Shown in pieces: positions 29,974-50,500 of a DNA stretch of 64,000 nt. A program made the position numbers and the translations under genes. Positions within the stretch are counted from its first letter, which is position 1; every line of letters begins with the position of its first letter. This DNA is from Podaxis mareebaensis (taxonomy: Eukaryota; Basidiomycota; Agaricomycetes; Agaricales; Agaricaceae), in assembly GCA_018524725.1 (NCBI GenBank), contig JAEUWP010000401.1, positions 1-64,000 on the forward strand, in the 5' to 3' direction. The notes beneath the pieces are model-generated. The model ran no database searches. It was given only the letters and a program-made list of their open reading frames with translations, and had not been told where the DNA came from.

Positions 29974-30661
29974 GTAGGAGAACGTTGTTGGTACCTTTCC
30001 GACGGTTGATTTAAATAATAACCCTCCACATCCTTCTAGGTGGTCGCTGCACCAGTGATGTCGTTTGCTAGACCGATAAAATAGTTGATTGTTCGTGTCT
30101 TGTGCTGTCATCGCAGAGACATCTCGGTACCTATATTCCCGTTCGACACCCGGAGGTCCCATTGCTGTTGTAAACGCCAGCCTTGCCCGTTTAACTAGAA
30201 TGAGTTGGCGCGAACTGCACACCTTTCCTGGGGGCTAATGCCTAGGACTACCACTAGGACCTATGCTGTCCCACTTGCTTCTCGTCACATACACGTTATT
30301 TATTATTATTTTTGGCTCGAATTTGACCCCAGGCTTGCGAATAACTCGCATGATCTACCAGACTTGCATCTCCCTTATCTCCACCGACCCCCCAACTCAT
30401 AACTTTCGCATACGCGAGCGTCCTCTGAACCCAAATAGTCGGTGGAGGTGGTAAGAATGTAACAAGTATCTTGGGTTAACTTTCTTTCAGGTTTTCACGA
30501 TTTCAACGAGGCCAACGTAGTGCTTATTAACACAACATGTCATAATCTCCGTTAACCCACAGGAAAAAAAATGCCAGAATACAAATCAGTAAACAAGACA
30601 ACAACATATGCCCTGACGAAACACATTTCGCCTTCTGCCAGTATCGCACTCCCTCGGCCGC
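29974..30661. other. Convergent intergenic region
   Basis: Lies between the 3' ends of the plus-strand F-box gene and minus-strand helicase copy 2. Short frames only. Confidence 0.5.
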
Positions 30662-33600
30662 TCACTCATACTCCCTTATAATTGGCCGCTCAATTGCGCC
30701 AGCAACTCCATCTTCTTCACCCTCCTCCCCGTCCACATCCAACGAATCAACATCCAAATCTTCATCCTCATATTTCCTCGCAATCATCGCCCTCAACCTC
30801 GTTATGGTCTCTTCGCTTTCCCTTATCGCTTGCATCCTCCTCTCTGCATCATACGACGGCAGGCTGGCATCGACAGGAGCGTTGGGGTCCCAGTCAATCT
30901 TCTTGCCCTTCCACCCTCCACGAAGGTAAATATAGTTCATGAAGCTACGCCAGAGCGGATCAAGAGAGAGAAGGATCGGGTTGCCGATGACGATGAGCAT
31001 GGCTTGAGCACGGGTGACAGCAACTTGAAAGCGTATTGTTATGAGCTCGTTGATCGAGATACAGGAAAAAGCGTACCATTGAACCGACGTTTGTCAGCGA
31101 CAAAGCCCAAAGACCTGCGCATGTCGGAGACCACGTAGTCTTTGTTGCTCCTGACAGTGGACATGATGATAACGCGTCGCTCCTACGAAAATTCACGGTC
31201 AGACCACACGTATTGAATAACGAAGGAAGCCATACTCACCTGCCCCTGGAATTGCTCGACGCTACCAACAGTAATCCCCTGAAGCTTTGGATTACGATCA
31301 AGCAAGCTCCTGATTTTACACCTCTGAGCAAAGTATGGCGTAATGACACCGATATGCTCTGCACCTGAATAACGTTGGACCGCTCAGCACCGCGTCTTCT
31401 ATATGATCGGGGAGAAAATACGTACGGATGCCATTCTTACGGTTGTCAACCAACGATTCACAATATTTCTTAACCAAACTCGCTTCATCAATGTTAAAGA
31501 ACGAAGGCGACGTCTTCTCCCTCTCATCCTTCCCCACAACACCATGGAAAATAATGGGGAAGCCTTTCTTCGGGAGCTCATCCGCGTTCTCGAGACTACG
31601 AACCATCGGTGCGTCTCCACAAGGCTGCAACTCCGATCTGTAGAACTGTTCATTCGGGAATCGCAGTATGGCGGGATGCGAGCGGAAGTTCTTGACGAGC
31701 TTGACGATACTGCAGGCACATGGCTATTAATAAACGCTCATAAAAAGACAAGTTCAAAAATACAAACGTGACGCCCGAGCCACCGGGCCCATTGTACCCT
31801 TCCTCCACATTATAAATATCCATCGCCATCAACCTCGCAAGGTAACTCTGCCTTAATCCCAACATCCTTGCGGTAGCCGAATGCACAATCGGCCCAAGTT
31901 GCTGATTGTCACCCGCGAGCACAACATTCGTGTCCTTGCCCGCAATGCTCTTGATTGGCACAATCACCTCGGGCTCCTTCCCCTGTCCAGCCTCATCAAT
32001 GAAAATGTGGCTGAAGTGTCCGCGCTTGAGACCTAAACTTGCAGGTATACCGCCAGAAAGACAGGTGGACACGACAACACGATATTTAGCCAGTTCTTCG
32101 GGGGATGGGATAGCGAAAACTGTGTTTTCATTGAGCAGCGAGAAGCGCTTCAATGTCTTTGGCAGCTCCTGGGCGTTGCGTGTAATAGAGTTGAGGCGGA
32201 AGACGACCGAGGGACCAAGGTTCTCGAGCTTCTGGACGAGCAGATCTGCGGCAGAGTTACTAGGTGCACAGGCCAGGATGCGGCTGTTGGGGTTCGCGCT
32301 GAGTATCTGTTGCATCGCCTCGACTAGAGTGACAGTCTTTCCAGTTCCAGGCCTGAACAACACACATCAGTTCTGTGCAACCGAGGAAGAAAAATATGCT
32401 TACGGTCCAAACACAATGAATGGAACGCTCCCAGGAGTCATATTCAAAATCGCAGCAACGGCCCCCAGTTGTTCATCATCATCCGCCAAGAGGCGGTTGA
32501 ACAACACTAAATTCTGCCTCTGAGCTGCTGTCGGTCTTTGAGCATTTCGTATATGCTCAGGACCTGGGAACAACAACCTCTTCGGGTCGAAACTGTTCTT
32601 AAGGATATGATACATCCGACGATACGAAATCCGATTGAATACAAATTGCACATCGAATTTCGTGCCTCGGTAGGTATTGAAATCGTCGCGGAAGCGTAGG
32701 CTGACACGGTCGAGGAAGACCCTATGTACACGACCTTCATACCAGGTTCGTTCTTGACCATCGTCGCCTTCGCCTGAGCGACTTATGAGAATGTAGTCGC
32801 CTACGAGGACAGATGGTCGGCCTTCAGCGAGGCCTTTGACCTCCAAGCTAAAGAGCATATGAGTGGACCTGCTGAAGGGCGGATAACATGGTCTCACTTG
32901 TATCGCGGATAATCAGGTTTGATTTCTGCCTCAGTCAATGCGTAGGCCATGAGGTCTTGCCTGAAGAACACACCTTCTCAGTGCACACTCAAACCTGGCC
33001 GAGAGGGAACCTACCTCATCTGTTCTTCCTCGACGTATAGCAAATACTGGAACCACGTGCCGTACGACTGGGTATTGAATACCTGCGGCATCAACCTCCT
33101 GACGTTCTGCACCGCATTCCCTGCCTGCTTTCCAAATGCCGCCTCGATGACATAAGTCGGAACCTCATACTTGGGTAACCTTTCACTCCAATTCGTCTTT
33201 GTCCACTCAGGCGGCCTTGTGCTGGGTACAATTTTACCAGTGAGGTTCATCGTAGGACCCCTATTGCGAGTATATGGCGCCTCGGGCCGGAGACGGTCAT
33301 GGAGTTCGGGGTCCCCGATCGCAGCAACAAGCTTGCGGGTGATCAAGAATGTGGCGCGTGGATAGAGTTGAACGAAGACGAGTTCAAGGGTATCCTCATA
33401 TCTCCCCACGTCGGACGCGACGAAACGGACGCGAACCGTGCGCCGGGAATTGGGATGAACCATTTTAGACTTGCCCTTTAAGCGCGCTGTGAAGCTAGAG
33501 ATGAACAACGGATCGTCTCGTCAATGGGGTACTTCTCCTGGAATAAAGACGGAATCACTCACGACTTATCCTGTTCTTCCACGCCGTTGTTGCCAACGCG

Positions 33601-34884: not shown

Positions 34885-35388
34885 CCTATACTTGTCATAA
34901 CCCATACTCTGTCATAACCCATAGCAAATTCCTTCCACAAAGATGGTTCGCAGGGGTTTTTGACCCATAACCCATAACTCTATATATTCACATAACCCAT
35001 GAGTTTTTGGAGCCGGAAACCCATAGCGCCGGTGACCATATATAGCAGTTGCCTGTATTAGGAGTGTAACAATCTTAGTTGCAAATGATTTTGTACAGTG
35101 AACGGTTGTATTATAGCAGCTGAATAATTTTCTGAGAACCTCAGCTATGCCTCCCTCACATATTCAGACACTGGAAAAGGGCTTAAATACTCTCAAACGC
35201 CAAATTTAATCATGAAAACCCCTGCTCCAGACCCAGTTGAAGCAGGGAAAATAGATCTCCAAAGCAGAGGAGCATTGGCTCAATAATGAAGCCAACCTCA
35301 TTGAGGAAACTCACGTCGTTGCCCTGAGGAAGGAACAGCACAATTTACAGCTTGACGAAGCACAAAGTGTGGTGGTGAAACAGCTAAG

Positions 35389-35658
35389 TGTAAGGGCTGG
35401 GCCCTCGCAGTCACATATTCATTGCTCCATATCATCTTGAGTCACTCGTTGTTAATTAATTAATTATTTTCTTGTTTGTCTTGGACCTTGATGGATTACT
35501 CAATCCATCAGAAAACATTCCTTATAAATCTCATCATCAGCTGTCGTTAGGACAGCTGACCTTATACATACACTTTGTACATCCCAATACATCGGGCTTA
35601 TTGTACGTCGGTGTGAACTTAAGGTCTAAAGCTCCCAGTAAGCCTCAGTAGGCTTACA
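35389..35658 (+). repeat. 5' LTR
   Basis: Begins TGTAAGGGCTGG and ends AGTAGGCTTACA. It contains three perfect hairpins with 8-9 bp stems (35489-35510, 35537-35559, 35638-35657). Confidence 0.97.
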
Positions 35659-35764
35659 TTTTTTTACAATACCCCGCACTTGGGCATGTACCAAGTGAAC
35701 CCATTAAACGCAACCATTGTGCTTAAAGCTTAAAGTAAAAACCCTCTCATCATCACTCACTTAA

Positions 35765-38700
35765 ATGGCCTCACAGCAGAACCACCCCCCTGGACACTAT
35801 GACATGTCTGAAGACATGCAACTGCAATTCGACGTGACGATGTGTGATGTGAGTGCACAAGATGCACACACTCCATCTACACCCCATCCCCCATCTATCC
35901 CCTCACCTCACAATGACCCAACGTCACCAATTCCCATCACCATCCCTCCAACGGATGCGTTGAATCATGACTTGTCCACTACCAGCGAGGAAGCTCCAGA
36001 GGAGCTTCCTCTCTTCCCCGAACTTGAAACAAGACACCCCCTCGCAGCGCAACCCGTGTTGCCCAGCACAACACACCGATCCGATGGTTCACACTCTGAA
36101 CCATCGACGCCAGAATTCTCGCCCCCTGCTCTCAATGACGTGGTCTCCTTAGAAGACCAAGTCAACTCTGTATTCACAGACTATGGCGTTATTAAACGCC
36201 AATGCCAACACCAAATGCTGTTATACACTGAAATGATCGTAGCGGAGTCATACCAGGAAACCAACTTGCCAATAGAAGTCGGCTCCAACTGATTCCGCAC
36301 CACCTACATCAGAGCTTTGACAAAGCTCTGCATGGCCTACCAGAAGGCCCAGGCCACGAAGGTCAAACGAACTGACCTTACACCCATGCATAGTGTATAT
36401 AAAATACAACCCACTCAACAGTACCTCGAGCATGTCCTCGACTCCACTAATGATGGGATCGCCTATGATCCCCTCAATGCCAAAATTAATGAAGCAATCG
36501 AGAGGGCTGAACAACACCCAGTACACGAGCACCATCGTCAACACAATAATGATGGACCACTGGCAACACCTCAACCACAACTTCGCATTGCACCACCATC
36601 ACCCACCGCTCTATTGAACACTGCCCAAGCTGTGGCGCACTTGCATGTGCCCTGGCAACCTGGGGAGACGGACCAGGTGTACAATGAACGCCTTAGCGCA
36701 CAACGATGACATGCACATGGGTACGACCTTAGAGCCACTCACTTTACTATCGAAGAGTCCACCGTCACGGACGGCGAAACTGTCCTGGGAAACGACACCT
36801 TTGTGAACCATCAACAATGCTATGCCCCAACTGGTGGGGCATCACAAATACAACCACCCTCGCTGTTAATGCAGCCTGACCACCAAAGTCAGACTACCAT
36901 CTCAAACTCCCAATGGTCACCATGACTACCCCCTATCCCCTCTCCTAAGGGGAAAGGACTAATGGGCGCACCATCGCTGAGGATGATGATGCAAGGTAAC
37001 AACTACCTTGCAACGAATCTTGCTAAACCAAACTTAGGAACGATAAAACAAACCGCTCCACCCCTGCCAACAGCTGAACCATTGGTCGGCGGTAAATCTC
37101 CAGTGGCTTCAACATCAAATGTCAAAGCCGAACAGCCCTCAGCTACTAGCATTCGGGTAAACACTAATACAATCCAAGTGTCGAGCACGCCGTTCGCACT
37201 ACCCATGGCTAAACAAACCCCTCGTGCCGACAAATGGAGCGACTGTATCGCTCTACAACGAATGCATAACGAAGATATCCACACTCATGGGTTGTCTATG
37301 ATAGACGACCAGTATGTTAGGTTCAACGGACATATACCTGTTGAAGCGACCATGTCGGAACACGAGGAGCAAAAACTCGCTACTCGTGTATTCTTCAGAG
37401 GCCCCCTTAAGACGCCTCGAACATCTGACCCCTGCAAAACAGTTAGGGTGGCCTCCCCACCCCAACAACCAGTACTACTGCCGTCATGGGGACAAAGCTT
37501 GCCCCTGCTACACCACCTAAACCCTCTATGAAACCTTCCTCCAGTAAGAGAGGAAGAAGAAGAGGATGAGGAAGAGGAGGAACGAGAGGTGCGTAACACC
37601 TCACGACTCCCAACACCAAATTGAGGGACTCGTCATTACTCCCTAGTTAGAGAAGCACGCGACAAGTCCGTAACTCCGGGGATCATACAATCCATCCAGA
37701 GTTACAATAATCTAATGTATGATCGTTTACATAGAACGATCGACCAATACCTCGCACAACCAATCGAATATCCAGAAGGTTATAAACCTTTGTTGAACAA
37801 GCTCCCCACAGAAAAGAGCTTGGAGCCATATGGTGGAAGTCACCGATTCAGAGACTTATTGTCATTTGTGACAAGTCTCTGTGCCGACTTCGCCATGAAG
37901 GGACTAGGGGGACAGAACCCCGCCACGAACTGTTTACGTATCCTGACCCTCCAATACTATCTCGTTGGAGAGGCGAAAGAGATGTTTGTTCGCCATGTAC
38001 TTAGCATAGATCGTAGTAAATACGATTGGACTTTCAAGAGTGTCATAACGGCACTCTATGACAGATTTATCAGACCGACATCGATGCATGAGGCTCGCGA
38101 AAGCCTCAAGGGAGTCAAATACAATCCCAAGGAAGGGATTCAACACTATTACGATGCCATCTTGGGCTACTTGCAAGACATGGCAGTACATCCCGATGAT
38201 TATTCTCTCATCGAGACCTTCTTAGAAGGTCTACCACAAACTATGAGACACTTCCTCATGTTTGACAGAGGACTGTCACCTGAAATGAATCAACTTGAAG
38301 ACTTTGTGGCACATGCAGCTGATTACGAGAATCAGATGCAAAGCAGTGCTTTCTTCAAAAGGGTACTGAAACCTTCTCGATCACATGAACCATCGGCAGG
38401 CTTCTCAAAGAAACCTGCCACAGCAGAACCAAGAACGAGGACCGCATGGGTCCCTCGTCGCATATCCGCAGGACGAGATCGTATACCTGCCCATGAGCTA
38501 AGGTGATCCTCGAACACCTTTCCACCAAAGTGACCGTTGAAACCCCGACCTCGACAATACAAACCCAAGGCTCAATTCAAACCACAGGTACAGAGCAAGG
38601 TACCTGTTAAGCAGAACCAAGGGAACAAGGCCACAGAGAAAGGGCCTTGTTACGAATGTGGAAAACATGGTCACTGGGCACAAGAATGCCCAGAGAAGGG

Positions 38701-39079
38701 GAAACAACGCAGCTATGTACAAGCCACGCACACAGTCGTTCCAGCGAACGACGAAGAAGTTCTTCAACAAGAAGTTGAAGAAATCAAACAGGACTCAACC
38801 TCAGATGACAACACTGAGGTCCAAGAAGAACCAGAGCCTAGTTCGTCAAATGGAGACGAACTAGTACAAGTCAAAGTCATTGAATCAGACTACGGATCTG
38901 ACATTGATGATGAATACAATTTCGCCGCCATGATTGGTGATGCAGAAGATGTCAGTGACAAAGATTGCGACGACTTCGATGTCATCGACGCTCTCACTGT
39001 CGAGCCCAGTGAGAAACCAGACCATGAAGTGAGGGTACACCGTGTTACCCTCCATAAAGAGAAGGACAAGATCCTTTGA
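35765..39079 (+). pseudogene. Ty3/gypsy Gag (capsid and nucleocapsid), interrupted by TGA codons
   Basis: ATG 35765 starts MASQQNHPPGHYD and a Pro/Thr-rich region. The capsid-type domain lies at about 37715-38370 (HRFRDLLSFVTSLCADF, YYLVGEAKEMFV, LYDRFIRPTSMHEARESLKG, TFLEGLPQTMRHFL), typical of retrotransposon gag. A CCHC knuckle CYECGKHGHWAQEC sits near 38650, followed by an acidic tail. Eight TGA codons interrupt the frame (36290, 36707, 36923, 37529, 37622, 38504, 38531, 39077) and no TAA or TAG occurs. Gag packages the element RNA into virus-like particles; this copy cannot make a full protein without readthrough. Confidence 0.85.
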
Positions 39080-42000
39080 CCCCAAGCATCCCTCAGCGAG
39101 AAGCAATGTCTCGCTACCCTTGTCAGTGTCAATGGGATTGACGCTTGGACACTGTGGGACTCAGGTAGCACGACTACCAGCATCACCCCCACATTTGCAC
39201 AAGTGGCTGGCATCAGGGTCAACGAACTATTAGACCCTCACACACTGCAACTAGGGACAGTGGGCAGTCAATCCACTGTCAAGTATGGAGCAACAGTAAA
39301 CATCGCCATTGGAAACATATGTACTTGCACGTATGTAGATGTAGCAAACTTCGATTGTTACGACATGATAATCGGTATGCCATTCATGCATACAAACAAA
39401 GTTATCCTCGACTTCATCAAGAATGAAGTCAGAATCGGAAATGAAACCATAGCAGTGGCGAACTTCGCCAGTGAATCAGATACTCGCCTGCGTCGCCACC
39501 GTGCAACCGACAAAAACAAGTCAAGTTGACTTGTGGAGGATGTTCGACGAGATAATATTCGTCGAACATCCATAGAAGAAGTTTGAGATGACGAACAAAG
39601 TTCCCAAGGGGAAACATTACCCCACAATAGCTGTCACCTCCTAGAAGAGGTCGAGAGTTCCACGAACTCTTGAAGGGGGGACGTAGGTCACAGAGGACAC
39701 AAGGTCTCCTCCAAGAGAGACAAACTGAAGGAAAAATCACACCCTTCACCAAACCAAGAGGGACAAAATGCCCCTCATAGACCACAAAAAACAAGAGACA
39801 AATCTCATTTGATGGACAGACCCACTCAGAACCCAATGTTCGAGTGGTACTATGACCCCCGCATGCCTGCAGAATGGAACGCCATGGTCTGTGGCATATG
39901 GGAAATGCGTCATCCTGGGGACGAACTACCAACCTCGACTGGGTTCACACAACCCAACCTCGACAACGTAGTCAAAACCCAGGAGTTTACCAGGGTACAT
40001 TACCCTGATAAAATGGTATGAGATCAACTCTGCAGTATGATCGTCACTCATCTTCCAGTGGAAGACGATTCAGAAACATGAATACAAAACACTCATATCA
40101 ATGCTGAAAAGAGGAATCGCCACCCTGAGCGACAAGGTTGGTATTCCAAGAAAAACATACCGACTCTGCGCCAGCAGTGGTTCAGCAAATTCGAGGACAT
40201 CATGCAAGGTCCTCCCGACGAATTACCACCATTTCGTGAAGTAAATCACGAAATAAACCTCATCGATGAGAACAAGAAGTACAATTACTTCACTCCTCAA
40301 TGCCCTCAATCTCTACACAGGGAGTTTCACCAGAAACTCAACTGTTATGTGAACGCAAGATGGTGGGAGCCACGACATGTCTCCCAAGCAGCGCTGTTAC
40401 TGTGCATTCCAAAGAAAGACGGTTGACTACGAACCATCATAGATGCACGACAACGAAATGAAAACACCGTCAAGGACGCCATGCCCTTGCCAGACCAAGA
40501 TGTCATTCGAGAAGACGTCGCTCGAGTGCAATATCGATCCAAAATCAATCTCGCTGATGCCTATGAACAAGTCTGAATACGTCTGGAAGACGTAGACAAA
40601 ACAGGATTTGCCACAATCGCTGGCATGTATGTTAGCAACATAATGCAGCAGGGGGATTGTAATGCCCCTGCAACCTTTCAGCAGTTAATGACTGCTATAT
40701 TTCGCGATGTCATAGGTATATGTGTACATGTATACCTTGACGACATCTTCATATTTTCTGACTCAATAGATGAACACGAAGATCATCTACGACTTGTGTT
40801 CGAGTGACTGCACGAACACAAGTTATATGTCAAACAATCCAAATGCAATCTGTATGCAGATCGCGTAGACTGCCTTGGTCATATTATCGATGACCAAGGG
40901 ATACACCCAGACGAAGACAAACTGACTCATATTCGGGGATGGTGCAATCCCAGAAACTATACCAACGTCCAATGATTCGTTGGACTCGTCAACTACCTGG
41001 CAAACTTTTTGCCAGATGTATCTGCATACACCGGGCCACTGCTCACAATCACCCAGAATGGAACCCCGTTCCATTGGAGACCCCTTCACCAGCGCTGCTT
41101 TGACATGGTGAAGAGGATCTGCGAGAAGACCCCTATTGTCAAACCAATAGACCCCAGAACTGGGGAACCCATATGGATTATCTGCGATGCCTCAAAGACA
41201 GGCGTCAGAGCTATGTACGGACAAGGACCCACCTGGGCAGACTGCCGCCCAGCAGGATTCATGTCCAAGAAGTTCACCCCCACACAGCAGAACTATGCTG
41301 TGCACGAACTCAAGACACTAGCGATTTTAGAAGCGCTAATGAAGTGGGAGGACAAGCTCGTCGGCTACTGGATCCATGTTATCACGGATCACAAGGTGCT
41401 GGAGTTTTTCAAAACTCAAACGCGATTGTCTAGCCGACAACAATGATGGATGGACTATCTATCGCGCTTTAACTTTGACATTACATATGTCAAAGGAGAA
41501 CGAAATAAAGTAGCAGACTGCTTGTCTCACTACTTTGAAAGCGATGCTCCAGGAGAGGAACACTCCCCTGGAGAATACGTCCAAGTCGACCACAGAATTG
41601 ATCCTCACTGCGAGGACCTACCTCTACAACGAGCTGAGGAGATTGAGCATCTCCTCGACAGAGTCAAGGCAATGGTTGAACGACCATTGCGGAGAAGCAC
41701 CCACCTACGCAAATGACAGGAAGAATGAGAAATCGAAGCTCGTGAGCTTCTAGAAGCAGCCCAGAGACAGGTGGCTCAACAGGAGCCACAAGAACGAATT
41801 GTCAAGTCTCCAACACTGGGAGACGCGCTAATGGGTAACATCACCACCAAAGCTCCAATGGAGCTCCCAGTCGATGTGACAAAAACAATCACATCAGGAT
41901 ACGCATCCGACCCCATATTTTCAGCGGTGCTTGAAGCACCTGAGAAATACAGTGGTTTTACCGTCAACGATGATGGTATTATTCGAAGAACTACCCCCCA

Positions 42001-43355
42001 AGGATGGGAGGTAGTATGCGTTCCCAACGATCGATCCTTAATTACAGAGCTTTTGAATAAAGCTCACGAGATCATTGGTCACTTCGGCAATCAATGGACA
42101 GCAGAGTACCTCTGAAGGTGGTACTGGTGGCCAAAATTAGCCAAAGACACACGCATGTTCTGCAGAACATGCGAAATATGTCAATGCTCGAAGGTCTCGA
42201 ATACGAAACCTTCTGGGACACTGCACTCACTACCAGTCCCAACCAAACCTTGGGATTCCATTGGAATGGACTTCGTCAGTCCATTCCCTGAATCCAAAGG
42301 CTTTGACTACCTCTGGGTCGTCATTTGTAGAATGACGAGTATGGTACACCTGATCCCAGTACATACGCAGATGAAAGCATCCGAGTTATCTTGGATCTAC
42401 CTACGAGAGATCGTGAGGCTACATAGCCTCCCTAGCTCGATCGTGAGCAATCGAGATTCAAAGTTCACCTCCGTTTGGTGGGTAGAACTCCATAAAATTT
42501 TTAGGAGCTAAGCTCCTAATGTCCACATCGTTCCACCCACAAATGGACGGGCAGACTGAACGCATGAACTGGAATGTCGGACAGATATTCCGAGCAATGG
42601 TCAGCCATGACCAGAAAAACTGGGTAGACAAGGTACCCATGACCAAGTTTGCTATAAACTCGAGTATATCAGCCACTACTGGGTACGCACTGTTCAAATT
42701 GAACAATGGATACATGCCCAGTATGATCCAAGAAATACGGGGCAACCTGACACCCCCTAAGGGTGTTAGACTATTTGCTGAAGCTGCCCTGATAAACTTG
42801 GCATCTGCTCATGATGCCATCATAGAAGTGTGGGTTTTCCAAACCTGCCAGGCAAACAGAAAGAGAGGGCCCGAACCTGACATTAAAGTTGGGGATCTGG
42901 TATTCCTCTCCACCAAAAACCTGAACTTGCCGAAAGGCAGAGCTCGAAAGCTCTGCCCAAAGTTCATCAGACCCTTTAAGGTCCTGGAAGCCAAACCTGA
43001 GATGTCTAACTACCGTCTCAAGCTACCACCAGCCCTGCAGGAACGTCGAATACACCCGACGTTCCACATATCCTTGCTTCGGCCCTATAATGCATCGGAC
43101 GATACACTATTCCCTAGCCGAAATAAGCCGGAACCCTACGACTTTGGCGTAGACAACGAACATGAATGGTTCGTCGATGAAATCATCAGTCATCATTTCA
43201 CAAACGATGGCAAGGCAGAATTCCAGGTACGCTGGAGTCTAGGCGATACAACATGGGAGCCGTATCACCATTGTAAAGACCTAGCAGCTCTAGATCAGTA
43301 TCTAGAGCTGAAAGGTGCTAACTCAATTCAACAATTACCACGGATCAGTCAATGA
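39080..43355 (+). pseudogene. Ty3/gypsy Pol: protease, RT, RNase H, integrase, chromodomain; broken
   Basis: Protease: TLWDSGSTTTSIT (DSG core) near 39150. RT: TIIDARQRNENTVKDAMPLP, QGDCNAPATFQQLM and catalytic VYLDDIFIFSD near 40730. RNase H: WIICDASKTGVRAMYGQG. Integrase: an HHCC zinc region (KAHEIIGHFG, CRTCEICQC) and SIGMDF. The second acidic site reads VSNRD rather than VSDRD, so a catalytic Asp (codon 42449) is changed to Asn. The chromodomain near the end reads EFQVRWSLGDTTWEPYHHC. Thirteen in-frame TGA codons lie between 39527 and 42113; several fall where this family has Arg (for example before FVGLVNYL and RWYWWPKL). One extra base in an A4T5 run at 42494-42502 breaks integrase. The frame ends with TGA 43353-43355. 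The copy is inactive. Confidence 0.92.
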
Positions 43356-43481
43356 CTATCTGTGGAAAAATTGACAGTGTCCAAATTTGGACACTTGACC
43401 CTGAGGATCACGTTCCCAATGTTTGGGAACACAAAGATGGGACAAATAACTTTAATTCGTCCTCACTTCAACACCACCACC

Positions 43482-46400
43482 ATGGACGCACAACAACCCC
43501 AACACGCCCAAAATCAACAATATGCATCAGCACAGGGTGACGCGAATCACCCTGCACATCCTGGAGGCCCTCCAACGGGCCTCGAAGGGGGGAGGGCAAT
43601 GGACATATCACCCGACCCGATCCCAGTTCCCCACCACAATGGGCAGCAACTTGCTGCCCAGCAAGTGCTACTATCTAACCTTGTGGGCTTGATACCACAA
43701 GGTCCAAACCAAATGGATCCATTGCATTTACATGCGATGCCTCCGCCACCCCAACCTTTCATGCAGGGTTACCCATACCCTGCATTCTACCCGCCTCCTC
43801 TGCACATGTATGGTTTCGCTCAACCATATGGACCCTACCCTCCTCCATTGGCGCCATACCCACCATACCAACAACCCACCACCGTGCCAATCCAACAAAT
43901 GCTGCCACTTCCACTGCAACCGCAGCTGTCACTGCTGACCCAAGATCGGCCAGCCACAACACCACAACCAACAACGCTGGCCCTGACATCATCATTGGCA
44001 ACCGACATAGGGAGGAACAATGCTCCTCTGTCTCAATCATCCTTGGTCGCCTCAACTCGAGGAAGGAGTAGAACAAAGAACTCCCCAGTGCCCTCATCCT
44101 CTAAGGACAAGGGCAAACATAAATCAACCGAGTCAGCACAGCCTGCCCTTGCCTCAAAAGCCTGAGGAAAGCAAAGAGCTGTAGATATAGAGCTCGAGGA
44201 CAACCAGTATGTCCAAGAGCTGATGAACTGACTCAACGAAGCAGGTCTACCTATAGACCTGATATCAGAAGTAAGCACCAGCTCCTGACATGGTGCTTGT
44301 AATGCAATTATTGAGGAGCTTCTCACAAAGCTCCGTAGTCTGCAAGATCATTTTGTCATGCTTGAAGGATGAAACAGTTTACTACAGAGGCAGGTCTCGA
44401 ACCTGCAACAACAACTAAACGAAAAATCGGACCATGAAGAAGAATGGCCCGCAAAACGATGCACGATGTCTCAATCAACGATGTCGTCTCAACGGGGGGT
44501 GCATAGCACCCCACAGACTCCAATGACCCTGACACCACGCACAGGTAATGAGGTAAAACCATTACCTCGCCAACGTCGTCAACCTTTGCCTCCACCGACC
44601 GTCTCAACCTCACGTCGGCCACCACCACTGCCAGCTGACGTCACCTTACCATACATTGAGGAGGTACCATCTGGGGACATCGATGTCCCCATGACAGAAC
44701 CTCCTCAAACAACCCCATCAAGGTCAGTAAAGCAGACCTCAAGCGGCATTGTCCCATCGGAGTCCCTATTTGAGGGACTCTCCTTTGGCCAACCAATCCT
44801 GGTATGCCCACCAGGAACTCTCCTCCCAGAGCCTGAAATCCAACTACATCATGAATTCGTCCGGTACAGTCCAGACGACCCAGACGAACGATTATCAGGC
44901 CTGGAATACTCGAGCGACGATGACGATTCCACAAAGAATCGTCATAAGAAAAACAAGAGCAAATCAAAGGTGTCGTCATCAAATAATGACGACTGCACTG
45001 ATGTATCAGACCGCATCGGCCGCAGAGGTAGAGTCCCCGACTTCTGGGGACTCTGGGGAACTGAACCCGGCATTCGAGAATGCGACAACTTCATGCGCAG
45101 AATGTTGTCGCATGACGTCTACTACTGCCAGTGAATAAACACTGTGTTCACCAGTACAAATGCCCGAATTGCTGCAAACAGTGAACTCCAAGGTAGGGAG
45201 TTCATTCACAGCAACAAGAAGGGCACCGTCCACCACATCGCAGGCTGGGGTCTACCTACGACCCCGAGACAAGTAATTCGGTTATGGCGGTTCATGAACA
45301 ACCACCACGTCAACATCCACAGCAGGTTCGAAGCATATTTCTTGCTTCGAGAACTGTATCACATCGCCTCCTCGACCCTTCCAGAGCATCACGATGATGC
45401 TATGGAATTCATATTGAACCTTGAGGGTTACGACCCCAAGTTTTTAGCATCTGGGATGCAGGAGGAATACATCACCAGGTTGGAACCCATTGCACACGCC
45501 GTACAAGACCACGGTGCATGCAATATCCTCAAACGAAACGAGGGCAAAGGATTACCAATGCCCTCTGGACCACAACTGTTCGATATTGACCTTTTAGGTC
45601 AATATCTTCTAATACATGGAAACCCTGACATGCGCAATGCCTTTAATGGCATTGCATTCGAACGGTGGAAGCTTGTACACCGCTGTTGCATATTTGGATA
45701 TGGCCTGGGCTGTGCTTTAAGTCCTGACAATAAAAGTGCAGCCCAAAGGTTCGTGCGACTATTTGCAGTACTGGTAGCAACCCCGCACCTCTACCGCAAA
45801 CTCATCACATCGTACAACAGCCACGTTCCTCCAGAACGCACCTTCGCTTCTCAGAATGGGCCCGTATACTCTATACAGCCCCTAGAAATGACTTCGTATG
45901 TGTCCCACAATCTGAGCCTCAATGATGTGGCTCACGTTCTCATCCGCAACAGTATACCCATTTCATGGGTAGACCACTCTTACCTTTTTGGGCTGTGGTG
46001 GTTAAACCACACCTATCGTGGTGACCAATTACACCACGACTTATACGATGAACATGACAACCGCCAGGTCGAGTACCTCGACCGATACCACGAGCCCCCA
46101 GCGATTCCTGAGTGGGATGGTTGGAGACATCCCACTCTCGACGACATTAACCGATTCTTGTACTTTGAGTACAAGAATGCACGACAAGCAAAAGGGGAGC
46201 ACTTTGTTCCCCAAGGGTGGTTACCAGCAGGAGCATTGCCCTTCTTCCGGCTCCTCCAGAACCACAATTACCCCCAATGCCTGCTGGAACCACCCCTCTC
46301 CCAATTGCAGCTGGCCCACCCCCTCACACTGACCCTCACTGGGTCGACACCTACAATCACTGAGGGAGTGGCGCTCGACGCAGACACCCAAATGACAGAG

Positions 46401-46613
46401 GCCAATGCCTCTGTACCCGCTCCCACCACCTCCAACCATCCGTCATTGGATGCAACCATGACCGAGGCCAACGCCTCTGCCCTTGCATCCGATCTGCCTC
46501 CCATTGCCTTCCTGGCTGAGGCCAACGCCTCCGCCCCATCATCCCAAGACGTCGTTGGCGAGTCTTCATCGATCGCCTCCTCCTGCTCACGCTTGTCCTC
46601 GTCACCTTCTTGA
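43482..46613 (+). pseudogene. Extra large reading frame downstream of pol in the Ty3/gypsy element
   Basis: About 1,040 codons from ATG 43482 (MDAQQPQHAQNQQ) to TGA 46611-46613, with five internal TGA and no TAA or TAG. It is in the same frame as the pol 3' part. The N-terminal third is Pro/Gln/Tyr-rich (YPYPAFYPPPLHMYG), the middle basic then acidic (DDDDSTKNRHKKNKSK). A folded-looking domain at 45144-46300 reads HHIAGWGLPTTPRQVIRLW, LLRELYHIASSTLPEHHDDAMEFI, then HSYLFGLWWLNHTYRGD. The C terminus has three EANAS units. I do not recognise the domain. No signal peptide or membrane segment is evident, so an envelope role is not supported. It shares the element's hairpin-dense DNA, so it belongs to the element. 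Confidence 0.75.
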
Positions 46614-46770
46614 ACGAGTCGACCCCAACTTATGCCTTCGTCGAGGTGAACCATCACCTCGTACTAATCCACCCTGCCAGCTGGGCACTATATGTGCCCC
46701 GTCCATCACTCACCTCCACAAGTAGCCACACCACTTGTGTTTCAATTTCCTTGACTGTATTCTACGGTCT

Positions 46771-46782
46771 CAACGGGGGGTG
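46771..46782 (+). other. Polypurine tract of the Ty3/gypsy element
   Basis: CAACGGGGGGTG directly abuts the 3' LTR, where plus-strand DNA synthesis is primed in LTR retrotransposons. A near copy (AACGGGGGGTGC) occurs at about 44491. Confidence 0.65.
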
Positions 46783-47052
46783 TGTAAGGGCTGGGCCCTT
46801 GCAGTCACATATTCATTGCTCCATATCATCTTGAGTCGCTCATTGTTAATTAATTAATTATTTTCTTGTTTGTCTTGGACCTTGATGGATTACTCAATCC
46901 ATCAGAAAACATTCCTTATAAATCTCGTCGTCAGCTGTCGTTAGGACAGCTGACCTTATACATACACTTCGTACATCCCAATACATCGGGCTTATTGTAC
47001 GTCGGTGTGAACTTAAGGTCTAAAGCTCCCAGTAAGCCTCAGTAGGCTTACA
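46783..47052 (+). repeat. 3' LTR
   Basis: Same length as the 5' LTR. I count six differences, all C/T or G/A at a CpG site in one copy, with losses on both sides (two in this copy, four in the 5' copy). Confidence 0.97.
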
Positions 47053-47314
47053 CTAAGGGAGAGAACCTATTGGTTTTATTCAACCGGACACTTTGCCTGA
47101 AGCAAGTAGCCCCACTGAAGGACACCCATATTGGGGATTATTTCGCTCGTAAAACTACTACCTAGCTTGGATTCGCCACAATATGCCAAGTAGGATAGCT
47201 TTTATGATTATTTCAAGTGTAATTATTCAATTTTTAATTGATTTTTTCCGCATATTCTCATAACCCATACTCTGCCAAAACCCACAGCCCAGCCTTGTCA
47301 TGAAGGGGTATGGA

Positions 47315-47332: not shown

Positions 47333-47537
47333 TATTACATTAGTTGCCTAAAGACACTATTGGCCGCTCGTGACAGACACACTCGTAGGGTTGAACATAA
47401 CAACAGGGACATGACATAGTACTACAATATAATACACCATAGTCCGTCAGGAAGAGTTGAACAAAAAAAAAACATTACTTAATAGAGCAGCCCAAAGCGG
47501 GAGTACACCATCGCCTAAACCCTCTAACCTCGTCCAC
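47333..47537. other. Spacer between the pogo-like remnant and helicase copy 3
   Basis: TA target copy followed by the helicase copy 3 3' flank. No gene. Confidence 0.6.
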
Positions 47538-50500
47538 TCACTCAGCCTCCCTGATAATTGGCCTCTCAATAGCACCAGCAACTCCATCCTCCTCACCCTC
47601 CCCCTCATCCACATACAGTGTATCAACATCCAAATCCTCATCACCATACTTCCTCGCAATCATAGCCCTCAACCTCGTTATCGTATCTTCGCTATCCTTT
47701 ATCGCTTGCAACCTCCTCTCCCCATCATACGATGGGAAGTCTGCATCGACAGGAGTATTGGGGTCCCAGTCAATCTTTGCGCCTTTCCATCCTCCGCCGA
47801 AGTGGACGTAGTTCATGAAGCTACGCCAGAGTGGATCTAGGGAGAGGACGTAAGGGTTTCCAACAACAATAAGCATAGCTTGAGCACGGGTGACAGCAAC
47901 TTGAAAGCGTGTTATTAGGGACTTGGTGATCAAGGTATAGGGGAAAGCATACCATTGAACCGACGCTTGTCAGCGATGAAACCCAAAGACCTGCGTATGT
48001 CGGTGACCACGTAGTTTTGGTTACTTCTAACAGTGGTCATGATGATAACACGTCGTTCCTACGAGAATTCCTGTCAAGTTATATGTAACGAGCAATAAGG
48101 AAAGGCACCCTCACCTGTCCCTGGAAGTGCTCGACACTACCAACGGTGATTCCCTCGAACTTTCGATCGCGAATAAACAACTGCTTGATTTTACACATCT
48201 GTCCATGGTACGGCGCAATGACACCAATGTCCTTCGGACCTAAGTAGCGTCGGATCAGTCAGCACACGCTCTTCTTCACGATTAAGAATGAGTGCGTACG
48301 GATACCATACTTGCGATTATCAATTAATGATTCGCAATACTTTTTAACCAAAATCGCTTCATCGACATTGAAGAATGAGGGTGATTTCTTCTCCCTCTCA
48401 TCCTTCCCCACAACACCATGGAAAATAATGGGGAAGCCTTTCTTCGGGAGCTCGTCTGCATTCTCGAGACTATGAACTATCGGTGCGTCTCCGCAAGGTT
48501 GTAACTCCGATTTGTAGAACCGTTCATTCGGGAATTTCAGGATGTCGGGATGCGAGCGGAAGTTCTTGATGAGCTTGACGATACTGCACATAGACGCTTG
48601 TTAGTAAACAGTCTTGAAAAGAAGAATTCAAGACACAAACGTGATACCACGGCCACCAGGTCCGCTGTATTCCTCCTCTACATTATATATATTCATCTCC
48701 ATCAACCTCGCAAGATAACTCCGCCCCAACCCCAACGTTCTTGCCGTAGGCGAATGCACAATTGGCCCAAGTTGATGGTTATCACCTGCAAGGATAATAT
48801 TTGTGTCCTTTCCCGCGATGCTCTTGATCGGCACCATCACCTCTGGCTCCCTCCCCTGTCCAGCCTCGTCAATGAAAATGTGACTGAAATACCCGCGCTT
48901 GAAACCCAAGCTCGCAGGGATACCACCAGAGAAACACGTAGATACGACAACACGGTACTTGGCCAGGTTTTCGGGACTTGGAACAGCGAAGACCATGTTT
49001 CCGTTGAGGAGCGAGAAGCGCTTGATTGTTGTTGGGACCTCCTCTGCGTTGCGAGTCATGGAGTTGAGGCGGAAGACGACGGAAGGACCGAGATTCTCGA
49101 GTTTGAGAGCAAGCAGGTCTGCGGCGGAATTGCTAGGTGCGCAGGCTAGGATCCGGTTGTTGGGGTTTGCGGCGAGGATTTGCTGGATTGCTTCGACGAG
49201 AGTGACAGTCTTACCAGTGCCAGGTCTATATAGCACACCTGAGTATTATGCGACATGGGGAGATATACACTTACGGCCCAAAGACAATGAATGGAACGCC
49301 TCCAGGTGCCATGTTCAGAATGGCAGCAACAGCGCCCAATTGCTCATCGTCGCCCTCCAACAGACGATTGAATAACGCCAAGCTATTCTTCTGGGCTGCT
49401 GTCGGCCTTTGAACATTTCGTATATGCTCGGGACCAGGAAACAACAGCCTCTTCGGGTCGAAGCTGTTATTCAAGACATGGTACATCCGACGATATGGCA
49501 CGCGATTGAACACAAATTGCACATCAAATGTTGTACCCTGGTAGGTATTGAAATCGTCGCCGAAACGTAGGTGGACATAGTCGAGGTAGACTTTATGAAC
49601 GCGACCTTCGTGCCAGTTTCGTTCTTGGCCATCGGTCCACTCGTCCGCGCGACTTACGAGGATGTAGTCACCAACGAGGACGGACGGGCGATTTTCGGCA
49701 AGACCGCTGACTTTCAAGCTAGGGAGCAAGTCAGGGGACTTGCCGGATGACGAACGACATGGACCTACTCGTATCCTGGATATTTGCGCTCAAGCTCTGC
49801 CCCTTGCAAAGCATATGCCGTTAGATTCTGTCTAAAGACCAGCCCTCTCAGCATATCCAGTCACAGAACACGGTTGAAGGGGGTGACCTACCTCATCTGT
49901 TCCTCCTCAACATACAATAAATACTGGAACCATGTGCCGTACGACTGGATATCGAACACCTTTGGCATCAGTCTCCTGATATTGTGCACAGCGTTCCCCG
50001 CCTTCTTTCCAAAGGCCGCTTCTATGACATACGACGGGACTTGATACTTAGGTAACCTTTCACGCCAACTTGTCGGTGTCCATTGGGGCGGTCTCGTACT
50101 GGGTACGATTCTACCGGTAAGGTTGATCGTAGGACCAGTATTGCCGGTATATGGTGCTTCAGGCCCAAGACGGTCATGAAGATCTGGATCTCCGACTGTC
50201 GCGAGGACCTTACGAGTGATGAGGAAGGCATTTTGTGCATGGGGGTGCACGAAGAGAAGCTCAAGCGTGTCCTCGTACCTCCCTACGTCAGACGCAACGA
50301 AGCGGATCCGAACCGTACGAGGGGAGTTAGGATGGACGTGCTTAGACCTGCCCTTCAGGCGTGCAGTGAAGCTACAGGCAAGGGGAGCATCATCTCATCG
50401 ACTGATATTCCCCGTAAATTAAGGGTAGGAAACTTACAACTTGTCCTGTTCCCTTACGTCCGGTTTACCAATGCGGCAGGTCTGCAATAGGATAGCCTCC

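Follow-up and report, generated by a model that had tools for sequence, protein, structure and literature searches.

The stretch of the Podaxis mareebaensis genome analysed here, 64,000 nucleotides of contig JAEUWP010000401.1 (hereafter the window), contains at positions 35389–47052 a chromodomain Ty3/gypsy retrotransposon (chromovirus) of 11.7 kb, in which short perfect hairpins follow one another from one long terminal repeat (LTR) to the other. The RNA of the element probably (at about 70%, judging from predicted folding and from comparison of copies) carries a genome-scale ordered RNA structure (GORS), built as a string of short local hairpins. Folding on the scale of a genome is already known from positive-strand RNA viruses; what appears to be new here is the carrier, an LTR retrotransposon.

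Hairpin density and predicted folding energy

A hairpin was defined as a perfect inverted repeat with a loop of 0–14 nt, and counts were compared with dinucleotide shuffles (60 for the element, 20 for the left flank). The element holds 62 stems of at least 8 bp against 2.4 ± 1.5 in shuffled sequence. The first-pass annotation, made from the letters of the window alone, had counted at least 25 such stems and put the random expectation at about 2; the excess is thus stronger than claimed, and the expectation agrees. With other thresholds, 184 stems of at least 6 bp were found against 32, 35 of at least 9 bp against 0.5 and 19 of at least 10 bp against 0.1. Neighbouring sequence is unlike the element, as had been stated: stems of at least 8 bp number 6 against 6.7 in the left flank (35.4 kb), 7 against 3.5 in the right flank (16.9 kb) and 13 against about 10 in both together (52 kb). 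Codon-preserving shuffles of eight frames of the element gave 1.5 ± 1.3 stems of this length (maximum 7 in 100 shuffles), where 29 are present, and those of the flank frames gave 4.8 against 8; codon constraint alone is therefore insufficient, which had also been proposed. All 16 individually listed hairpins are perfect inverted repeats at their coordinates (Table 1). Their stem lengths were correct in most cases; the stems at 40873 and 40231 are 1 bp longer, and that at 44673–44690 extends one pair outwards.

About 22% of the bases of the element lie inside stems of at least 6 bp, with 25% and 30% in the two LTRs. By kilobase, the share ranges from 11 to 29%, the minimum being at 36388–37387, and the spread through gag, pol, the extra frames and both LTRs noted at first reading is borne out. 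Stems are 6–13 bp long. Loops are mostly of 3–8 nt and A-rich (0.367 against 0.307 in non-hairpin sequence), and the plus strand has a mild A/C skew. Neither a shared loop motif (the top 4-mers occur only 6–9 times among 607) nor a regular spacing of hairpins (coefficient of variation 0.87 against 0.79 ± 0.07 under random placement) was found, and the hiding of splice-site motifs by hairpins was examined and found unsupported.

The folding excess, i.e., the predicted stability over that of shuffles, was calculated in 350-nt segments with RNA energy parameters only. Along the whole element the folding energy is far below that of dinucleotide-matched shuffles, as in GORS. The excess is 28.8% for the plus strand (33 segments; 28.4% in a repeat) and 21.1% for the minus strand, and the flanks give −2.6% and 0.0%. 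Two cousin loci reach 25.7% and 24.4%, and all 20 halves of 10 other copies fall between 16 and 33%. The value of the element is similar to the 25–31% of the leviviruses, RNA phages for which the same measure gave 28.6% (MS2), 31.1% (Qbeta) and 25.1% (PP7). Published values (PMC7642675) are 15% for SARS-CoV-2, 7–9% for hepatitis C virus and at most 23.4% for vertebrate RNA viruses; the element exceeds this maximum, in a comparison with the same fragment length and program family but another step and shuffle number. Among other retroelements of the genome, 14 gypsy or LINE-like pieces show 7.2%, and five of the 15 copia loci 9.3%. The element and the phages differ in how the folding is built: perfect stems of at least 8 bp (loops 3–14) number 61 in its 11.7 kb against 14 in 11.4 kb of the three leviviruses, a fourfold difference, whereas helices with one interruption number 32 against 50 in the three phages together.

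Copies, relatives and constraint on the stems

A DNA search of the genome (37 Mb, 429 contigs) gave 40 matches, comprising the window, 28 at 87–96% and 11 at 73–76%, from which 30 loci were cut, the window's own included. Other family copies, to which the first-pass annotation had pointed as a check, carry the stems as well: 29 of the 30 loci have 13–24 stems of at least 8 bp per 2.8–3.6 kb (expected 0.3–1.2), the exception being L029, which matches the element over only 422 bp at a contig end. Ten copies fetched as two halves contain 21–36 and 23–49 stems per half (24 and 38 in the window). Fifty-seven of the 62 window stems are comparable in at least five other copies. A perfect stem of at least 7 bp occurs at the same centre in a mean of 82% of copies in the upstream half (21 sites) and 68% in the downstream half (36 sites, two of them in no other copy).

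The cousin loci L030 and L077 have 18 stems of at least 8 bp against 1.0 expected and 10 stems of at least 7 bp in 1.2 kb against 0.7, respectively. In the two next-nearest gypsy families (37% and 40% amino acid identity, one piece each) a folding excess is absent (−7.1% and 1.9%). Since copies and cousins share the excess and the next-nearest families sampled lack it, hairpin saturation looks like a property of one clade within this genome. The 15 copia loci have 14 stems of at least 8 bp against about 11.6 expected, and the 14 other reverse transcriptase (RT) pieces (gypsy, LINE-like) 9 against about 3.4. Stems of at least 6 bp in these pieces (L051–L080) are 1.7–1.9 times as frequent as in shuffles, unlike in the flanks. 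No relatives were found as DNA among the viral contigs searched; two bacterial-bin contigs with distant relatives (28–37%) have no stems of at least 8 bp, though one of them, L084, has 31 stems of at least 6 bp against 16.4.

In the analysis of selection, CpG sites were masked, except in the L030 comparison and in covariation between families, because the mostly dead copies decay at CpG, independently on both arms. What first looked like too many double changes was mostly such decay, and that reading was discarded. The dead copies (e.g., L002–L028) decay mainly by CpG to TpG/CpA changes, and the stops in them are mostly TGA, as expected of methylated repeats. L029 was left out of the core alignment, L030 was handled apart, and L021, L024 and L013 were left out as partial or divergent (L013 was kept in one count); L017 and L028 were, for the same reason, also omitted from that count, the L030 comparison, the core diversity and the G.U/A.C counts, and L001, which repeats the window, from the core part of the within-family arm test. 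Of 22 ends, 16 yielded an LTR. As the core, upstream/downstream and LTR alignments overlap, only the upstream and downstream ones were pooled for covariation and G.U/A.C counts.

Two subfamilies, of 3 and 8 copies, were compared by counting fixed differences in the downstream half with the extra frames. Such differences occupy 15 of 314 stem positions, 25 of 149 loop positions and 153 of 958 other positions (P = 2e-8); at third codon positions the figures are 11 of 98, 14 of 42 and 100 of 272 (P = 7e-7). As a control, shifting the stem positions by multiples of 3 gave 15–20% fixed differences. Where both partners of a stem pair are third codon positions, 3 of 30 sites differ against 125 of 470 (P = 0.05), and in the non-coding LTR (with the upstream LTR of copy C37 omitted) 7 of 81 stem positions differ against 36 of 133 in the rest (P = 0.001). 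Because these two groups of sites are constrained as well, the constraint on stems is not merely a shadow of protein constraint. This distribution of changes indicates that the stems are under purifying selection, with paired sites less variable than unpaired ones, as in GORS.

Paired changes had been suggested as a further check on copies and relatives, and the outcome was divided. Pairing survives double changes within the family in 15 of 19 column pairs, compared with 65 of 156 once the register is slid (P = 0.003), a control that demands a Watson–Crick state in the slid pairs; between families, compensation is weak. Of the stems of three main-family copies (30–37 each), 3 to 5 are fully paired in L030, and in the reverse direction 2 to 4 of 27. 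Few stems remain fully paired in L030, although its hairpin density is much the same, so that individual hairpins are replaced between families while their number is maintained; individual pairings are thus poorly conserved between related families, again as in GORS.

Origin and maintenance of the hairpins

To account for these results, we propose that the plus-strand RNA would fold in the cell into consecutive local hairpins and that natural selection would act on the degree of folding, the identity of each hairpin mattering less than the folding of most of the RNA. The likeliest benefit would be compaction of the genomic RNA of about 11 kb for Gag particles, or the shielding of that RNA from antisense small RNAs and other silencing factors, the two being inseparable here. 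Given the spread of the hairpins over LTRs, coding frames and extra frames, the benefit would be global and not that of a single packaging site. Selection for a locally folded RNA was one of the two causes considered in the first-pass annotation, and the stem constraint, the paired changes and a folding energy like that of RNA phages support it. Structured transcripts escape sensing in vertebrate cells (PMC3950689), and something similar might conceivably apply to fungal RNA silencing.

Several observations weigh against selection on the RNA as the whole explanation. In the core region (23 copies) the constraint is milder, with a third-position diversity of 0.078 in stems, 0.111 in other sequence and 0.134 in loops. 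Between families pairing is kept in 39–50% of cases against 34–37% in slid registers. The GC-content of stems does not fall as their length grows, and interruptions of the stems are much rarer than in RNA phages, a degree of perfection not called for by selection on stability alone. Single-sided stem variants shared among copies form A.C in 65 column pairs and G.U in 46 (both halves, CpG masked), a ratio close to the approximately 1.4 to 1 expected from base composition by our own estimate. Wobble pairs are therefore not visibly better tolerated than mismatches, whereas plain RNA selection predicts otherwise. The 34 fixed interruptions are likewise near base composition, with 2 G.U and 11 A.C. 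Two asymmetries between the arms, described next, belong on the same side of the balance.

Some of these features would fit a process in which reverse transcription writes the hairpins, the nascent strand folding back, copying its own arm and returning (quasipalindrome correction), with selection playing a minor part. We regard this as unlikely, and it is kept in play by the parity of G.U and A.C, the arm asymmetry, the lean towards 5′ arms and the perfection of the stems, which are nearly always uninterrupted (100 of at least 7 bp, loops 3–14, to the 32 one-interruption helices, compared with 34 to 50 in the three phages together). The two arms differ in composition, with C enriched in 3′ arms and G in 5′ arms (98 against 52 stems of at least 6 bp when compared by A+C content, P = 2e-4); in L030 the arms give 101 to 62 for C:G, but 91 to 117 for A:T. 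Three non-independent copies of the main family, set against L030, have hairpins that differ more in the 5′ arm than in the 3′ arm (82:60, 80:56 and 92:79), slightly more unevenly than controls (1.74, 1.82 and 1.61 against 1.43, 1.36 and 1.57). However, in the opposite direction, from L030 hairpins to these three copies, the differences are not uneven (1.37, 1.35 and 1.26 against 1.43, 1.40 and 1.49; arm counts 59:67, 67:71 and 69:66). Within the family, 128 changes lie in 5′ arms and 132 in 3′ arms, and among 151 variable sites, counted when supported by at least four copy pairs, the larger arm's share is 0.79 against 0.78 in the control (42 sites with 3 changes) and 0.66 against 0.72 (14 sites with 4). 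Pure copying also does not predict the slow evolution of non-coding and third-third stem sites. Template switching that perfects near-palindromes, the other cause named at first reading, is not supported and is kept as an unlikely reading: changes concentrated in one arm were not found within the family, and three of six between-family comparisons lean slightly that way. A combined course, in which the element's own reverse transcription writes the hairpins by fold-back on the nascent minus strand and RNA selection then keeps them, would account for the perfection of the stems, for the opposite G and C enrichment of 5′ and 3′ arms and for the 5′-arm lean; we hold it to be improbable as well, and if true, a retrotransposon polymerase would generate its own RNA folding.

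It is quite unlikely that the hairpins are selected in single-stranded cDNA and not in RNA, for example by protecting or shaping the minus-strand DNA. The equal treatment of G.U and A.C fits strand-symmetric or DNA pairing, and the loops, A-rich on the plus strand, are T-rich on the cDNA, but the predicted folding excess is greater on the plus strand (28.8% against 21.1%, with RNA parameters only), and relative to shuffles the G.U share is lowered about as much as in RNA phages (0.055/0.080 and 0.099/0.132), so that in this respect the element behaves like other folded RNAs. Special avoidance of G.U had been considered and was dropped, as RNA phages show about the same share relative to shuffles. 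Dispersed packaging signals have a precedent in MS2-like phages, and a span over the whole element and both LTRs would suit hairpins that are each a binding site of one protein, e.g., Gag; with no loop motif standing out and the spacing not regular, we consider this very unlikely. Chance, base composition or codon usage could draw on the mild A/C skew of the plus strand only, and is hardly credible: shuffles that keep dinucleotides or codons fail to reproduce the excess, and copia and other RT pieces of the same genome are near expectation or mildly above it.

Layout of the element and relation to known systems

The LTRs have the ends TGTAAG...CTTACA (TG...CA), and a direct repeat, CTAAG, forms a 5-bp target-site duplication. 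The coordinates of the features are given in Table 1.

Table 1. Features of the retrotransposon, in positions of the window.
Feature	Position	Strand	Remarks
5′ LTR	35389–35658	+	270 bp; hairpins 35489–35510, 35537–35559, 35638–35657; CTAAG upstream at 35384–35388
Putative R-region 7-mer TATTGTA	35599–35605	+	exact complement of the putative primer-binding 7-mer
Internal region	35659–46782	+	56 perfect hairpins of at least 8 bp, 103 of at least 7 bp; through gag, pol and extra frames
Putative primer-binding 7-mer TACAATA (self-priming type)	35665–35671	+	TGG absent directly after the LTR
Gag capsid-like frame	37715–38506	+	Retrotrans_gag, E 5e-4, under the curated cut-off
Nucleocapsid-like frame, CCHC zinc knuckle	38537–39079	+	domain search
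Longest perfect hairpin	39538–39571	+	13-bp stem, 8-base loop
Part of pol: RNase H, integrase zinc-binding, integrase core	40976–42448	+	match to P0001 (copy L002), domains read on P0001
Integrase C-terminus, Tf2-1-like SH3 and chromodomain	42519–43355	+	chromodomain under the cut-off
Extra downstream frame	44466–45134	+	no Pfam match; hairpin-rich
Extra downstream frame, 489 aa	45144–46613	+	no Pfam match
Polypurine-tract-like AACGGGGGG	46772–46780	+	just before the 3′ LTR; presumed role
3′ LTR	46783–47052	+	270 bp; hairpins 46883–46904, 46930–46954, 47032–47051; CTAAG again at 47053–47057
Hairpins listed in the first-pass annotation, confirmed	39538–39571, 45582–45606, 40792–40823, 45080–45113, 36990–37012, 40873–40899, 43678–43703, 44673–44690, 45030–45054, 42501–42519, 39256–39280, 40231–40254, 44760–44780		and the three in the 5′ LTR

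The RNase H, H2C2 and SH3_Tf2-1 domains score above the Pfam cut-off, and rve and Chromo below it. The pol part at 40976–42448 has four in-frame TGA codons in the window copy, and RT lies upstream of RNase H in the family copy on C122. Among the best 120 of 514 protein relatives of pol, those named are mostly from Agaricomycetes, such as Hypsizygus (73% over 47% of the query) and Armillaria (54% identity over 95% of the query). In the two extra frames, fixed differences outside hairpins amount to 9.4%, 6.4% and 36.8% at codon positions 1, 2 and 3, which argues that these frames evolve as coding sequence. The 489-aa frame has three homologues at E 0.001 among 5.8 billion proteins, in a search that needs shared 5-residue words.

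The two 7-mers match each other as exact complements. In all 7 copies whose anchor could be read (4 of 11 copies are without one) they covary, in three pairs of primer-binding site (PBS) and LTR alleles: TACAATA/TATTGTA, TACAGTA/TACTGTA and TACTGTA/TACAGTA. This covariation points to self-priming, the PBS pairing with a site that would lie in the 5′ part of the RNA of the element itself. The element resembles the self-primed chromoviruses of the Tf1/sushi type in having SH3_Tf2-1, a chromodomain and a PBS complementary to its own LTR; we know of no report of hairpin saturation in any of them.

Copies of the family look mosaic. In the upstream half, three copies of the window type differ from the other eight by 3 fixed differences in 3885 CpG-masked sites, and in the downstream part by roughly 10–26% per 300 columns. 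The LTRs of the copies are 76–96% identical to those of the window, and copy C37 has unlike 5′ and 3′ LTRs. The uneven divergence along the copies and the unlike LTRs of C37 suggest recombination among family copies. A diverged direct duplication (30652–33121 and 47528–49998, 71–87%, spacing about 16.87 kb) lies with one unit on either side of the element, and the open frames of the right duplicate look helicase-like by eye.

In positive-strand RNA viruses, GORS consists of several hundred consecutive stem-loops through the genome with a large folding-energy excess, less variation at paired sites and individual pairings poorly conserved between relatives, all of which resembles the element. 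In coronaviruses it has been described likewise, as structure that is kept while individual pairings turn over (PMC7642675). The element differs in its mostly perfect stems and in being an LTR retrotransposon and not a positive-strand RNA virus, so that it works like GORS and is not a strict member. Among LTR retrotransposons, the genomic RNA of yeast Ty1, with stable structure, has reportedly been mapped by selective 2′-hydroxyl acylation analysed by primer extension (SHAPE). SHAPE mapping of yeast Ty3 genomic RNA gave a well-folded core that makes up some 20% of its length (PMC11381356). Ty3 is likewise a case of stable structure in such RNA and is not directly comparable with the element, since the text on it gives no shuffled-sequence comparison or z-score. 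In maize, Sireviruses have palindromic LTR motifs, and transposable elements carry miRNA-like structure (PMC10760457); these, too, are hairpins in LTR retrotransposons, presumed to interact with small-RNA silencing, but they are concentrated in copia LTRs, and Ty3 elements show no obvious peak.

No description of an LTR retrotransposon with such structure was found in the open-access literature, which was surveyed in part, with subscription papers largely outside. The initial statement that no described element has this property is thus uncontradicted for LTR retrotransposons and too broad otherwise, genome-scale ordered RNA structure being well described in positive-strand RNA viruses. In RNA viruses, folding across the whole genome has been linked with persistence and with evasion of host sensing. 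A clade with the trait beside relatives without it in the same nucleus provides a natural paired comparison in which dozens of copies can be used. The 7–9% found in other LTR elements here suggests that LTR retrotransposons in general may fold their genomic RNA to an extent so far overlooked.

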